Position numbers and translations under genes: made by a program. DNA of 52,069 nucleotides, from positions 1 to 52,069 of the IMG/VR virus record IMGVR_UViG_3300025446_000011. One strand, given 5' to 3'. The notes below the pieces were generated by a model. That model did no database searches, had not been told where the DNA came from, and saw only the letters and a list, made by a program, of their open reading frames with translations. Shown one piece after another: positions 39,659 to 44,244 of this stretch (position 1 is its first letter; each line of letters starts with the position of its first letter). This stretch comes from a virus.

Positions 39659-40495
39659 ATGGGCCTCAGGCACGGCAGCCTCTTCAGCGGCATCGGGATG
39701 ATTGACTACGGCCTGGAGCTTGCGGGCTTCAGGACCGCATGGCAGGTAGAGATAGACCCCTACTGCCAGGCGGTGCTGCGCAAGCACTGGCCGGGGGTCC
39801 CTCTCTACGGGGACGTGAAGGAGTGCGGGAGTGGGAGAGAGCACGAGCTTGAGCGGGTTGACCTCGTCAGCGGGGGGTTCCCCTGCACAGACATCAGTAT
39901 CGCCGGTCACGGGCCGGGAATCGGCACCCCCGACAACCCGACGAAGAGAAGTGGCCTCTGGTACGAGTTCCACCGAATCGTGCGGGAGATGCGCCCTAGG
40001 TGGGCAGTCATTGAAAACGTGGCTAGACTCCTGCATACGGACGATGGTGCCGGGGTCATCTTTGACATGGAGAAGGAGGGATATGCGTGCTGGCCCTTCC
40101 TACTGGGAAGCCATGTCATCGGAGCGCCCCACGAGAGGCGGAGGGCTTGGATTGTCTGCCGTGACAACCACTCCCACGGCGACTGCGATACTGGTGCAGG
40201 AGTGGGACAGGGGCAGCTTCCCGATAACCTCCGGCGGGCGTTTGAGGAAGCGGTCGAAAAGGAACATCACTGGAAGTGCGAACTGGCCGCAGGAGATGAT
40301 GGCACGCATGGTCCTCCAGAGGAACCCGAGCCTGCTGCCTACAGCCGAGGCGTGCGAAGAGTTCATGATGATTCCCACTGGGTGGACCGACTTAGGTGCT
40401 GCGGGAACAGTGTCATATGGTTCTTCCCCGCAGTCATCGGAGCCTACATCGCCCAGGCCGGGGAAGGAGGGGAAGATGGAGACAGAGGAGACTAG
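39659..40495 (+). CDS. DNA cytosine-C5 methyltransferase 1
   Basis: A 278-residue C5 methyltransferase. Motif I is SLFSGIGMIDYGLELAGF (residues 6-23), motif IV GGFPCTDIS (about 70-78, catalytic Cys), motif VI WAVIENVARLL (about 117-127), motif VIII HERRRAWIV (about 155-163), and motif X WVDRLRCCGNSVIWFFPAV (about 241-259). The target-recognition segment between VIII and X is only about 75 residues. Codons become AT-richer from about 39840, where a second open frame begins. Likely leaderless. Recognition sequence unknown. Confidence 0.85.
   Translation: MGLRHGSLFSGIGMIDYGLELAGFRTAWQVEIDPYCQAVLRKHWPGVPLYGDVKECGSGREHELERVDLVSGGFPCTDISIAGHGPGIGTPDNPTKRSGLWYEFHRIVREMRPRWAVIENVARLLHTDDGAGVIFDMEKEGYACWPFLLGSHVIGAPHERRRAWIVCRDNHSHGDCDTGAGVGQGQLPDNLRRAFEEAVEKEHHWKCELAAGDDGTHGPPEEPEPAAYSRGVRRVHDDSHWVDRLRCCGNSVIWFFPAVIGAYIAQAGEGGEDGDRGD
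39831..40475 (+). other. Open +1 frame overlapping methyltransferase 1
   Basis: Open from an ATG at 39831 and continuous, without a stop, into the 40476 gene. The translation holds TPTATAI, SGGRLRK and MMIPTGWTDL, which resemble the LNPxxVEWLMGFPxGWTDL pattern I recall from proteins annotated next to phage C5 methyltransferases. Equally long +1 frames overlap the other two methyltransferases. It may be a dual-coded gene or a conserved shadow frame. Confidence 0.35.
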
Positions 40496-40814
40496 GACGG
40501 GGGCAGAGGCAGGGGGGCAGGCAGCGCCGCCTGCGCCGGCCGGGCAGGCCCAGGCAGTGCCCAGGGCCAGGAGGCCGAGGGCCAAGGGGGAGTGGGCCTT
40601 CATCTCCAAGCGGGTCCTTGCCCGCCTCGACAGGCAGCCCAGCAACCTCCAGTCGTTGGAGAAACGGCTGGTGGAGGTAAAGCATATAGTCAAGGAGGGG
40701 CTGACCGAGCAGGCGGAGCTGGAGGAGGCTATCGCAGCCTTCAAGGGCGTGCGTGCCAAGGGCGGCCCCCAGCCACCTGAGAGGCGGCCGGCAAAGGCCA
40801 AGACCCTGTCCTAG
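40476..40814 (+). CDS. Small basic helical protein between methyltransferases
   Basis: A 112-residue protein starting at ATG 40476 after AAGGAGGGGAAG. A disordered Ala/Pro/Gly N-terminus is followed by a charged coiled coil (about 50-95, VLARLDRQPSNLQSLEKRL). It overlaps the methyltransferase 1 end by 20 bases in the same frame as the overlapping open frame. Unknown function; possibly a partner subunit. Confidence 0.6.
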   Translation: METEETRTGAEAGGQAAPPAPAGQAQAVPRARRPRAKGEWAFISKRVLARLDRQPSNLQSLEKRLVEVKHIVKEGLTEQAELEEAIAAFKGVRAKGGPQPPERRPAKAKTLS

Positions 40815-40821
40815 GGGCATA

Positions 40822-41703
40822 GTGAGAGTCTACTACAACGACAACGACAAGTTCTGCTGCGGGTGGGTGGAAAAGCTCATCGAGGCAGGGCTTGTCCCCC
40901 CTGGGGACATCGACGACAGGAGCATATGCGATATAGGGCCCGAAGAGGTCAGGAGGTACGACCAGTGCCACTTCTTCAACGGGATTGGGGGATGGCCCCT
41001 GGCCCTCCTCCAGGCAGGGTGGGGGGACAGGCCCGTATGGACAGGCTCGTGCCCGTGCCAGCCGTTCAGCTCGGCAGGGAGGAAGGAGGGGGTCAAGGAT
41101 GAAAGGCACCTCTGGCCAGCCTTCTTCGGCCTCATCCAGGAGTGCCGCCCTCCAGTCGTGCTTGGAGAGCAGGTTGCGACAGCGGTTGGAAGGGGCTGGC
41201 TCGACATTGTACTCGGAGACCTGGAGGCGGAAGGCTACGCCTGCGGGGCGACTGTACTTGGCGCACACAGCGTCGGCGGCCCCCACATCAGGCAGCGGAT
41301 ATACTGGTGGGGCGACAGGGATTTCAGGGTACCCTACCCCGCAGGCACGGGACTACAAGGGTCCGCAGGGGAGGGCCTACGAGACCAAGCGTGCGACCTG
41401 CTCGACGACGAGCAGGGTGGTCGGGAAGAAGAAGCAGCAGGCGCTCGACCTCCCGGCAGTGGCGCTGATGGTGGAGGGAGTGGGGCAGCGCTTCCCGGAG
41501 GCAAGGGTTTCTGGAAGGGCTGGGAATGGCTTCTGTTCCGTGACGGCACGAGGCGTCCAGTTGAACCCGGCGCTTTCCCGCTGGCTCATGGGGTTCCCCA
41601 GGGAGTGGGACGACTGCGTGGCTACGGTAACGCTCTCTGCGTCCCGACCGCCAAGGCGTTCATAGGGTCCTACATGGAGGCCGTCAGCCCAGCAGTTCCC
41701 TGA
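40822..41703 (+). CDS. DNA cytosine-C5 methyltransferase 2
   Basis: A 293-residue enzyme with a GTG start seven bases after the upstream stop. N-terminal YYNDNDKFCCGWVEKLIEAG (given in part) and FFNGIGGWPLALLQAGW (motif I, about 52-68) mark the phage/actinobacterial Dcm type. Motif IV is GSCPCQPFSSAGR (about 76-88), motif VI reads LGEQVAT, motif VIII GGPHIRQRIYWWGD (about 153-166), and motif X GRLRGYGNALCVP (about 269-281). EPGAFPLAHGVPQGVGRLR precedes motif X as in relatives. The middle target domain is low-complexity. Confidence 0.85.
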   Translation: MRVYYNDNDKFCCGWVEKLIEAGLVPPGDIDDRSICDIGPEEVRRYDQCHFFNGIGGWPLALLQAGWGDRPVWTGSCPCQPFSSAGRKEGVKDERHLWPAFFGLIQECRPPVVLGEQVATAVGRGWLDIVLGDLEAEGYACGATVLGAHSVGGPHIRQRIYWWGDRDFRVPYPAGTGLQGSAGEGLRDQACDLLDDEQGGREEEAAGARPPGSGADGGGSGAALPGGKGFWKGWEWLLFRDGTRRPVEPGAFPLAHGVPQGVGRLRGYGNALCVPTAKAFIGSYMEAVSPAVP

Positions 41704-42538
41704 ACTTGTCGGGCAGCCTGCCCGCCAGGCCCTCGTCGAAGTCCTGTAGGTACTCGGGGGGCACCCTGCCCCTTATCCGCCCCACGTCCTGCGGCTGGTC
41801 CCAGTAGCGGAACCCTGCGTCCATGAGCTGGTAGAACAGGTCCTTGCGGTGGCCCTTCATGCGGATTACGTCGGTGTCGTCCTGCCCGTAGTTCGGCCCG
41901 AACTCCTCCATCCCCAGGGCGACGAGGAGGCCCGGCATGTCCACCCCTGCCTCTGGGCATACCTTGATGTTCACCTCGTAGGAACCCCAGCTCTCCTCCG
42001 ACTTCCTGCTTATCACCCCGTCCCCCTTGGCCTGGGGTTCTTCCATGAAGCCCTCGTAGGTCTGTGGCATCTTGTAGTCCTGCGCTGTCTCTATCTCGGC
42101 CCTGGTCTTTTCCCAGTCCTTGGGGGTCTCCCAGACCCGCAGGTACAGGACCCCGTCCCTTGCCATCCAGCCGTACAGCCAGTCCAGCATGCCGGGCTTG
42201 AAGGCGACCTGGTTGTACGTCCTGCCGCCCAGGTACAGGGAGTACCGTGTCCGCTCTTTCTTGGGCCTGGGGTTCCTGTGCTCGGCGGCTCTCTCGGCGG
42301 CCCTCTCGGCCGCTTCCCTCCTGGCCTCGGCCTCCTCGGCTTCCTTCTCGGCCTTCTCGGCCGCTGCCTTCCTGGCCTCGGCCCAGTGCTCCGGGCTGAC
42401 GTAGGGTAGGCCCGATGCCTCTAGCTCCGCCCATGCCCTGCGCCGTGCCTCACGCTCGGCCCTCCTGGTCTCGAAGCCCTTCCAGAACTCCTCGCTCCGG
42501 GCTATAAGCTCGGAGAGTTCCGTGCCGCAGTTTTCCAT
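41684..42538 (-). CDS. Coiled-coil protein of unknown function
   Basis: A 284-residue protein starting MENCGTELSELIARSEEF after GGAGGGAGC. Residues 20-100 form an Ala/Glu/Arg coiled coil (EAEEAEARREAAERAAERAA); the C-terminal 170 residues are globular with RTYNQVAFKPGMLDWLYGWM. It ends 20 bases inside methyltransferase 2 on the opposite strand. No family recognised. Confidence 0.65.
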   Translation of the reverse strand: MENCGTELSELIARSEEFWKGFETRRAEREARRRAWAELEASGLPYVSPEHWAEARKAAAEKAEKEAEEAEARREAAERAAERAAEHRNPRPKKERTRYSLYLGGRTYNQVAFKPGMLDWLYGWMARDGVLYLRVWETPKDWEKTRAEIETAQDYKMPQTYEGFMEEPQAKGDGVISRKSEESWGSYEVNIKVCPEAGVDMPGLLVALGMEEFGPNYGQDDTDVIRMKGHRKDLFYQLMDAGFRYWDQPQDVGRIRGRVPPEYLQDFDEGLAGRLPDKFRELLG

Positions 42539-42555
42539 GCTCCCTCCATGCCTAT

Positions 42556-42593
42556 AGTATACACCGAGAAACACCAGGATACAGGGGGAAGTT
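42556..42593 (-). promoter_or_regulatory. Minus-strand bipartite promoter
   Basis: AACTTCCC-N22-TGTATACTATA, with the spacing conserved and the upstream half diverged. Drives the 42538 gene. Confidence 0.6.
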
Positions 42594-42604
42594 GGGGCGT
42601 TCCC

Positions 42605-42951
42605 CTAGTAGTTCTTCCAGAGGCACTCCACCTCGTCGGTATTGCTGAGCTTGTTCCGCTTCGGCACCCTGAGGAACGGCTCCCCGAGCGCCTCCAGGTA
42701 GGTCCTGTGCCCGTACTCGCTCAGCAGCCAGCGGAACCTGGCGCTCTTGAGCATGCCAAGAGCGGGGCGGTGGCTATGTCGTTGACATGATACTCCTCGA
42801 ACTTCCACGGGGCGAGGGTACCCACGGCCCACAGGACGTTCCCCCGCCCTGCGAACGGCTCCGTGTAGGTCCTGGCACAGGGCATCTGGTCCACCAGCAC
42901 CCTGGCCATGCCCGTCTTGCTCCCCGCATAGGGGAGGTTCGGCAACCGCAT
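42605..42951 (-). pseudogene. Decayed Dam-type adenine methyltransferase
   Basis: The 5' part (42721-42951, 76 codons) carries the Dam-like N-terminus: LPYAGSKTGMARVLVDQMP and EPFAGRGNVLWAV (motif I), then HVNDIATAP. The frame then stops, but the -1 frame continues to 42605 with RFRWLLSEYGHRTYLEALGE and VECLWKNY, which resemble the C-terminal part of phage adenine methylases. The catalytic DPPY region is missing entirely. So an internal deletion plus a frame change has removed activity. Alternatively the pieces are two small genes. The promoter at 42971 is intact. Confidence 0.6.
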
Positions 42952-42970
42952 TGTGTTTCCCCCCGCTTGC

Positions 42971-43008
42971 ATAATACATCGAGGTACATGCTCCGGCCAG
43001 GGTATCGT
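42971..43008 (-). promoter_or_regulatory. Minus-strand promoter, weaker match
   Basis: TGTATTATGC with the 22-base spacing to ACGATACC, which only partly matches AGAATCCC. Upstream of the decayed adenine methyltransferase. Confidence 0.45.
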
Positions 43009-43023
43009 CCCCAAGCCTGGATG

Positions 43024-43035
43024 GTATTAGCCAGC
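43024..43035 (+). promoter_or_regulatory. -10-like box for a leaderless gene (GTATTA-N6-ATG)
   Basis: GTATTA followed by GCCAGC and ATG: the third copy of this arrangement. Divergent from the minus-strand promoter at 42971. Confidence 0.55.
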
Positions 43036-44244
43036 ATGGGACTCGTCTACGGAAGTGTTTGCAGTGGTATAGAGGCAACCACGGTGGCATGGGAGAGTCT
43101 CGGGTGGAGGCCTGCCTGGTTCTCGGAAATAGACGAGTTCTGCTGCGAGGTCCTCAGGCAGAGGTACCGGGACAAGTACCCCGAGGCTGACAACCTCGGG
43201 GACATGGTAGGGATAACCGGGCACCCGAAGTTCCAGTCCACCCACGTGGACCTAATCGTCGCTGGTACGCCGTGCCCGGCGTTCTCCACAGGTGGCCTGC
43301 GGGGGGGATTCAAGGACGACAGGGGGAAACTTACACTTGAGTATGTCAAAATCCTTGGGGCAAAGAAGCCAGAGTGGTTCGTCTGGGAGAACGTCGATGG
43401 GGTCATCTCCATGCCCAACGTCCAAGAGGACGGTAGTGTGCCTGATGACAAAAGGTGGCTATTTGGCACCATCCTCGGGGAGATGGTTGAATGCGGGTAC
43501 GGGGTCGCCTACAGGGTTCTGGACCCACAGCATCTCGGCCTCCCCCAAAGCCGTCCCCGAGTCTTCGTGGTCGGCCATCTTGGCGACTGGGCCGGTCCCG
43601 AAAGAGTACTATTTAACGGATACCCATCTGATAACTACACTCCGGGAGGCGGCGATAAAGCGAGGCGCATACCTGCTCTTACTACCCAGACTGCGGGAAA
43701 TGCGAACGCAAGAGGCGTCGTCGTGGTTGAATGCACTGGCGAAGTGGACTGGGCAGACCCACCGTGCGGAGAAGACCGAAAGTGGGCGGTTCGTGCCCTC
43801 ACCCCGATGGAGGAAGAGAAAAGGCAGGGATTCCCCGGCGACTATACCGCCATTGACTGGCACGGAGGCCCAGCCCCCGACGCCCTGAGGTACAGAGCGA
43901 TAGGCAACTCCATGGCCATACCCGTCATGCGGTGGCTGGGGGAGCGCATACAGGAAGTAAACGACCAAATCAAGGGAGGCACGTTCATGGACCAGCATAA
44001 GGCAGACACGATAGACGGGGTACCGGTAGCGCCGCCGCAGCCCGAGTTCCAGCCCGAGATAGAGGCCAAGCCCAGGAAGCAGCATAGGACGCAGCAACGG
44101 GCATCCTTCCTGCCGCCTGTCCTCTCTCAAATGCTTGGCAGGATTCCCGCAAACGTCCAGATGGCCGAGAAACTACTCAGGGAGCTGGAGGAGCAGGCGG
44201 AACAGGTACGTTCCTTCATAGCAGCATTGAAGGCCCAGTCCTAG
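43036..44244 (+). CDS. DNA cytosine-C5 methyltransferase 3 with C-terminal tail
   Basis: A 402-residue protein. Motif I is GSVCSGIEATTVAWESLGW (residues 6-24), motif IV IVAGTPCPAFSTGG (about 74-87), motif VI WFVWENVDGVIS (about 113-124), motif VIII HLGLPQSRPRVFVVGHL (about 170-186), a target region, QGFPGDYTAID, and motif X YRAIGNSMAIPVMRWLGERI (about 284-303). From codon 318 a separate coiled-coil tail begins with its own SD (GGGAGG) and ATG at 43987, so it may also be made alone. GC3 drops between about 43290 and 43890, matching an overlapping open +1 frame. Confidence 0.87.
   Translation: MGLVYGSVCSGIEATTVAWESLGWRPAWFSEIDEFCCEVLRQRYRDKYPEADNLGDMVGITGHPKFQSTHVDLIVAGTPCPAFSTGGLRGGFKDDRGKLTLEYVKILGAKKPEWFVWENVDGVISMPNVQEDGSVPDDKRWLFGTILGEMVECGYGVAYRVLDPQHLGLPQSRPRVFVVGHLGDWAGPERVLFNGYPSDNYTPGGGDKARRIPALTTQTAGNANARGVVVVECTGEVDWADPPCGEDRKWAVRALTPMEEEKRQGFPGDYTAIDWHGGPAPDALRYRAIGNSMAIPVMRWLGERIQEVNDQIKGGTFMDQHKADTIDGVPVAPPQPEFQPEIEAKPRKQHRTQQRASFLPPVLSQMLGRIPANVQMAEKLLRELEEQAEQVRSFIAALKAQS

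Follow-up and report, generated by a model that had tools for sequence, protein, structure and literature searches.

Three methyltransferase genes with nested +1 frames

The window analysed here is a virus record of 52,069 nt (IMG/VR record IMGVR_UViG_3300025446_000011); on its plus strand it contains three genes for C5-methyltransferases (MTases), named gene 1, gene 2 and gene 3, each holding a long open reading frame (ORF) shifted by +1 with respect to the MTase frame (Table 1). The protein of the main frame (frame 0) is designated alpha, while beta indicates the putative protein of the +1 frame nested in the same gene. Comparison with homologous genes indicates that the nested +1 genes are real, old and widespread, and nested alpha/beta genes for C5-MTases are probably the best explanation for the three loci.

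All three alpha chains score above the PF00145 cut-off. The PC motif and motif X (GNA/GNS) are visible in the alignments of gene 2- and gene 3-type sequences and in gene 1, where motifs I-VIII and X were recognised by eye and the motif IX segment was unmatched. Gene 2 likely starts at GTG 40822, in an ORF open from 40753; the ORF of gene 3 begins upstream of 43042.

The +1 frames lie where a preliminary description of this DNA, made from its letters, had placed them: that of gene 1 starts at 39831 and remains open through 40814, past the end of the gene and into a small ORF from 40476, that of gene 2 is open at 40985-41665, and that of gene 3, open from 43256, includes 43292-43888. The likely starts agree only in part with the positions given there: in gene 1, AAGGAG precedes GTG 39831 by 7 nt, but for gene 2 ATG 41099 is likelier, and for gene 3, whose candidate starts are GTG 43292, ATG 43343 and ATG 43397 (GGAG at 7 nt), one of the two ATG codons is perhaps used. 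The motifs recorded in the translations (GWTDL, LNPALSRWLMGFP and YYLTxxxLxxxLREAAxKRG) are present, and they belong to conserved +1 families.

As null model, synonymous-codon shuffles of the same gene were used, which preserve the MTase protein and its codon composition. The longest +1 opening measures 224 codons in gene 1 against 101 expected (0/200 shuffles), 242 against 127 in gene 2 (p=0.01; 0/300 shuffles in a second run) and 210 against 82 in gene 3 (0/200 shuffles). Among 40 long ORFs of the window, p<0.005 was obtained for genes 2 and 3 only, gene 1 being displaced in this comparison by its own longer +1 ORF. The three frames had been described as longer than the other same-strand +1 shadow frames noted (up to about 136 codons); they do exceed their own shuffles, but +1 openings of up to 247 codons occur in other ORFs of the window, some of which may not be genes, and length alone is thus weak evidence. 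The drop of GC content at third codon positions within the overlap, reported for genes 1 and 3, was found in both (0.67 vs 0.84 in the rest of gene 1; 0.64 vs 0.75 in gene 3) and extends to gene 2 (0.64 vs 0.83). When the +1 translations were scored against profiles of the +1 proteins of their relatives, gene 2 reached 175 bits (null 56+-13, 0/1000 shuffles) and gene 3 reached 106.6 bits (null 51.7+-9.7, 0/1000 shuffles), while gene 1 scored 58 bits against a 64-sequence profile (null 35+-8). On these scores, the case for dual coding in the window's own copies appears very strong for genes 2 and 3 and modest for gene 1, the least certain of the three because 5/1000 shuffles score equal or higher.

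Table 1. Positions of the methyltransferase genes, nested frames and associated features in the window
Feature	Position	Strand	Evidence
Gene 1, C5-MTase main frame (alpha)	39659..40495	+	PF00145 2.5e-34, profile 3-166 only; PHROG 363 6e-57
Gene 1 nested +1 ORF (beta candidate), GTG start	39831..40475	+	Opening vs shuffles; +1 profile score; aligned with gene-1-type +1 family
Shine-Dalgarno AAGGAG, 7 nt 5' of GTG 39831	39818..39823	+	Sequence
Gene 2, C5-MTase main frame (alpha)	40822..41703	+	PHROG 363 2e-64; PF00145, profile 66-161 only
Gene 2 nested +1 gene (putative beta), ATG start, 188 aa	41099..41665	+	PHROG 1008 2e-21; profile score; homologues
Shine-Dalgarno AAGGAGG, 9 nt 5' of ATG 41099	41083..41089	+	Sequence
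Gene 3, C5-MTase main frame (alpha), canonical motif IX RALTPMEEEKRQGFP	43042..44244	+	PF00145 8.8e-43, two stretches incl. profile 272-323
Gene 3 nested +1 ORF (beta candidate)	43292..43888	+	Profile score; opening vs shuffles
Small ORF downstream of gene 1, 112 aa, same +1 frame	40476..40814	+	Sequence

A Pfam scan of the small ORF downstream of gene 1 gave no match. By eye, it resembles the C-terminal tail of gene 3 (44041-44244), both having a basic stretch followed by a coiled-coil-like end (ELEEAIAAFKG and LRELEEQAEQVRSFIAALKAQ, respectively).

Constraint on both frames in homologous genes

About 325 homologues, with GC contents of 39-70% and from many phyla, were gathered almost wholly by main-frame queries, a way of collecting that puts no selection on the +1 frame. 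The gene-2 type is represented by 170 homologues from viral contigs, bacterial genomes and six annotated phages (the latter found through a +1 search), the gene-1 type by about 66 loci and the gene-3 type by 88, of which 80 came from an alignment query, run after a single-sequence scan with gene 3 had given no match, and the others from a few phage records. In tblastn searches of phages the +1 protein of gene 2 had matches in 147 records, while that of the window's gene 1 had none; the BASEL phages Bas70-76 carry loci of the gene-2 type.

The +1 frame is open for at least 179 codons in 170/170 gene-2-type homologues, and it is also open in the gene-1-type and gene-3-type loci. Gene-2-type sequences have 1.24 stops per gene in the +1 frame, mostly the +1 terminator itself (median position 26 nt before the MTase stop), where 3.6 are expected; the +2 frame, used as control, is normal in this respect, with 9.9 stops observed and 9.1 expected. 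The openings persist at low GC, as in loci L012 (0.42), L116 (0.45) and the gene-3-type L285 (0.39), and in the named phages MM1 (0.41), Lc-Nu (0.49) and Bacteroides phage BX788P2 (0.47). In Escherichia coli dcm, a host C5-MTase gene taken as negative control, the +1 frame is full of stops and the nested feature is absent.

The strongest evidence comes from how the sequences vary at individual codons. At the column of residue 131 of the window MTase, in the gene-2 type, the residue is L, M or V, and codon position 1 has 1.66 bits and position 3 only 0.06 bits; the third position is invariant because the +1 residue is almost always W. At MTase residues 246 and 252 of the same type the +1 residue is P and L, respectively, in 100% of the sequences. 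Across residues 199-218 of the gene-3 type, frame 0 has 2.65 bits and the +1 frame 1.67, against 2.99 in the shuffle null. In general, +1 conservation is far above the synonymous-shuffle null within the limits of the ORF and only slightly above it outside; the large excess begins and ends with the +1 ORF.

Since the z-scores from shuffles ignore the tree and are not probabilities, changes by codon position were also counted in disjoint pairs of related sequences. Third positions account for 0.65-0.73 of the changes outside the overlap and for 0.37-0.44 inside (chi-square p from 3e-15 to 9e-85), and the share of differences at the first position rises inside to 0.35-0.37. This shift is a signature of two constrained frames that a shadow cannot yield, and the comparison shows both frames to be under protein-level purifying selection. 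The suggestion of the preliminary description that the overlaps are genuine genes rather than shadows is therefore supported by shuffles, stop counts and codon-position shift, with modest support for the copy in gene 1 of the window. As refutation, it had named ordinary synonymous variation in the MTase frame together with +1 stops in close homologues; this outcome did not occur, since synonymous variation is strongly suppressed in the overlap and normal outside, and +1 stops are fewer than expected.

The +1 protein families and a putative second subunit

The +1 families are themselves related, as shown by profile comparison of gene 1 with gene 2 (hhalign probability 99.4) and of gene 1 with gene 3 (94.6). 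Therefore, the nested gene probably predates the divergence of these MTases; some of the similarity could stem from common main-frame ancestry. The model of the gene-2-type beta predicts a helix, an LTWKxxxTPxGR hairpin (pLDDT up to 93), WPTPxARD repeats at low confidence and a C-terminal LNPxHSRWLMGYPxEW helix. The gene-3-type protein shares the N-terminal half and is predicted to end in a helical hairpin, RYFLSxKACxGILRRAEKRGKxLPxxL (pLDDT 92-98), for which the window's gene 3 has the variant motif YYLTDTHLITTLREAAIKRGA, common to locus L260.

A resemblance to proteins annotated beside phage methyltransferases, suggested in the preliminary description, was borne out: the +1 protein of gene 2 matches PHROG 1008 (E=2e-21), and the records of several phages annotate nested +1 genes. 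The +1 proteins of the window's genes 1 and 3 remain below a match to this profile, which is matched by 11/12 sequences of the gene-1-type +1 alignment. The profiles PHROG 1008, 31772 and 16143, which match nested +1 proteins, are labelled 'DNA methyltransferase'. Although this name implies a methyltransferase, Pfam detects no MTase catalytic domain in the +1 proteins, and the label was probably carried over from the overlapping gene. PHROG 1008 is found in 10/274 genomes of one bacterial class, seed included, a scattered distribution in line with prophage genes.

C5-MTases made of two polypeptides are already known from biochemistry. The EcoHK31I enzyme belongs to a restriction-modification system, and its small ORF lies in another frame inside the large one. 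In M.EcoHK31I (YGGCCR) motif IX is on the small second polypeptide, and in M.AquI the small subunit comprises part of the target recognition domain (TRD) and motifs IX and X (PMC3404938). As in the published description of M.EcoHK31I, the alpha chains of genes 1 and 2 have no matched motif IX while the beta has a motif-IX-like segment; unlike it, the genes considered here are phage genes, the beta also spans the region from motif IV to the TRD, and gene 3 alpha retains motif IX. The putative small chain would resemble that of M.AquI in having a TRD part and a motif-IX-like segment, whereas alpha retains motif X.

Nested genes of this family have also been annotated in phages. In Streptococcus phage MM1 1998 (DQ113772) orf13 and orf14 were named by the depositors C5 methyltransferase alpha and beta subunit. 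As at the loci of the window, orf14 lies inside the MTase gene, orf13, with a shift of +1. It begins at an ATG preceded by a Shine-Dalgarno sequence and ends in a YFLSAEMVQRLL segment, resembling the gene-3-type family. The phage differs in its Gram-positive host, its GC content of 41% and an identity of 34% over the shared part. The +1 protein of the gene-3-type locus L300 matches the MM1 beta (E=6e-4), and the window's gene 3, whose +1 protein fits the profile of that family, has the same arrangement of a second protein in frame +1 of the MTase gene. We know of no experiment behind the MM1 annotation. Further +1 genes inside C5-MTases are annotated in Paenibacillus phage Diva (DIVA_50, 'g49 internal gene'), E. 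coli phage fTaEco03 (TE3_033, 'Mte8-like') and Xanthomonas phage PhiXhv-28, one by one and without a statement on selection or function; in FoX4 and Cr-LKS3 only the +1 gene is annotated at the corresponding place.

The C-terminal part of PF00145 (motifs IX-X) was found in frame 0 for gene 3 only, where the match includes profile positions 272-323; in genes 1 and 2 the match goes no further than position 166. In the alpha chains of genes 1 and 2, motif X (GNA/GNS) can still be recognised by eye, but other sequence occupies the place of motif IX, and there the +1 protein of this type has a motif-IX-like segment, LNPxxxEWLMGFPxGW, absent from the main frame. The MTase frame of Gordonia phage SchottB contains the related segment QLSPVFVEWMMGLPRGW, and its +1 ORF ends before reaching it; this frame-0 segment matches the +1 protein of gene 2 (BLAST 4e-5). 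It is as though one module could serve in cis, as in SchottB, or in trans, as in genes 1 and 2.

We propose that each MTase locus consists of two nested same-strand genes, with a catalytic alpha in frame 0 and a beta in frame +1. The beta would start within the MTase gene, at a start codon with a Shine-Dalgarno sequence close to where catalytic motif IV is encoded, and end near the alpha end in genes 1 and 2, and well before it in gene 3; it would be made by internal initiation on the same mRNA and then bind alpha. In the gene 1/2 type, variable WPTPxARD repeats and the LTWKxxxTPxGR hairpin precede the C-terminal LNPxxxEWLMGFPxGW, and beta may complement the small DNA-recognition domain in trans with its motif-IX part, because alpha has no motif IX between VIII and X; alpha and beta together would form the active enzyme, as in M.EcoHK31I. 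In the gene-3 type alpha is complete, and beta would act differently, as motif IX is in the main frame, more likely as an accessory or specificity subunit. The role as a subunit is suggested by the SchottB segment, the M.EcoHK31I precedent and the 'beta subunit' annotation of MM1. That beta completes the small domain of alpha is a reasonably likely reading for genes 1 and 2, while an accessory or specificity subunit is proposed tentatively for gene 3.

Several observations weigh against this proposal. Taken alone, the similarity of the LNPxxxRWLMGFPxEW segment to canonical motif IX is not significant (hhalign E=0.13), even if the sole alignment found falls on that motif. In gene 3 the large chain departs from those of the two-polypeptide enzymes by having RALTPMEEEKRQGFP in frame 0, and since the gene-3-type alpha keeps motif IX, beta cannot complement it there. 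No significant Pfam, NCBIfam or PDB sequence match was obtained for the +1 proteins, their AlphaFold models reach only partial confidence (mean pLDDT 69 and 63), and Foldseek gave no match for them at E<=0.001. Finally, the gene 1 copy of the window is weak and has no +1 stop of its own before the next gene.

Alternative explanations and significance of the family

Even with the nested genes real, beta might be an independent overprinted phage protein, for instance a regulator or a counter-defence factor, and no MTase subunit. The gene-3-type +1 protein, without motif IX and paired with a complete alpha, would suit such a role, and its confidently predicted C-terminal hairpin has no counterpart in fold and sequence searches. 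However, +1 queries returned 159 loci, each overlapping an MTase frame, and no standalone +1 protein is among them, the motif-IX-like segment of the gene 1/2 type sits in frame 0 of an actinophage MTase, and one record names the nested product a beta subunit; an independent function is thus considered rather unlikely.

Programmed frameshifting into the +1 frame would join the MTase N-terminus to an alternative TRD and C-terminus, with no separate protein. It could account for locus L244, where motif I continues across a (CA)n repeat into the +1 protein without a change of frame, and for SchottB, with its LSPxFVEWMMGLP segment in the MTase frame. However, 47-57% of the +1 ATGs have a Shine-Dalgarno match of at least 4 nt, against 13-27% of the +2 ATGs, so that separate internal initiation is the likelier mechanism; moreover, the annotated nested genes of other phages start at such sites and strong +1 constraint sets in after the internal starts. 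On these start sites and constraints, and without a systematic search for slippery sites, frameshifting as a general explanation is very improbable.

Even less can be said for shadow ORFs, open and similar merely through the conserved MTase frame and GC-rich codon usage: long shadows are common at high GC, many high-GC gene-3 homologues are individually unremarkable and S, R, T and P abound in the +1 sequences, but synonymous shuffles retain these features and are strongly beaten, and this explanation was rejected on the shuffles, the normal +2 control, the openings at 39-49% GC and the codon-position shift. A constraint on the nucleic acid, such as RNA structure or DNA repeats (WPTP/MADA), is the least credible explanation: the TRD regions do consist of repeated units readable in both frames, but +1 codon periodicity, with conserved +1 residues, extends to the repeat-free N- and C-terminal parts, and an Rfam scan of the window stretch matched no family, which counts against an RNA element.

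Some homologous loci present other peculiar features. In L423 and L424, two of the 159 loci mentioned above, the MTase frame has one in-frame stop and the +1 protein is intact, which may reflect a sequencing error or a decayed alpha with beta retained. In three gene-1-type MTases (L206, L213 and L244) a (CA)n microsatellite (THTHTH) lies where the +1 ORF starts. The register of this repeat in L244 joins motif I to the +1 protein and leaves the remaining MTase in another frame, like a phase-variable switch. In a phage P1 record (L257, OP279344) a LAGLIDADG/Hint intein, ending in VVHN-C, interrupts Dmt at the catalytic PC motif; it is absent from NC_005856, where the +1 ORF of dmt lies at 66710-67201, and from P7. 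Within the MTase genes of L018 and L019, sequences resembling HNH and LAGLIDADG homing endonucleases were recognised by eye; they lie in phase with the +1 ORF, and frame 0 remains open.

Searches of the available literature on overlapping genes in phage MTases returned no paper on this family as a conserved overlapping gene. Piecemeal nested annotations, PHROG clusters under a misleading name and two-polypeptide C5-MTases were already known; what is new is how widely the family occurs and how strong the evidence for dual coding is. On balance, the comparisons favour the view that several phage C5-MTase subfamilies, including those of cyanophages, Bacteroides phages, phages of Proteobacteria, Actinobacteria and Firmicutes, and P1 dmt, share one ancient, obligately nested out-of-frame gene family, which would encode a trans-acting small-domain or specificity subunit. 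If so, few long same-strand overlapping gene families of bacteria and their phages would be as widespread, and this one would have escaped notice because gene callers drop one of the two frames or name the product a methyltransferase. Long overlaps of this kind are often disputed for lack of evidence; here hundreds of natural replicates are available, and the dual-coding signature is confined to defined limits, with internal controls. A systematic annotation problem is also exposed, PHROG 1008 and its kin being called DNA methyltransferases. The model is directly testable in laboratory phages (P1 dmt; BASEL phages Bas70-76), and a nested beta could explain those phage C5-MTases that seem inactive when the main frame alone is cloned.

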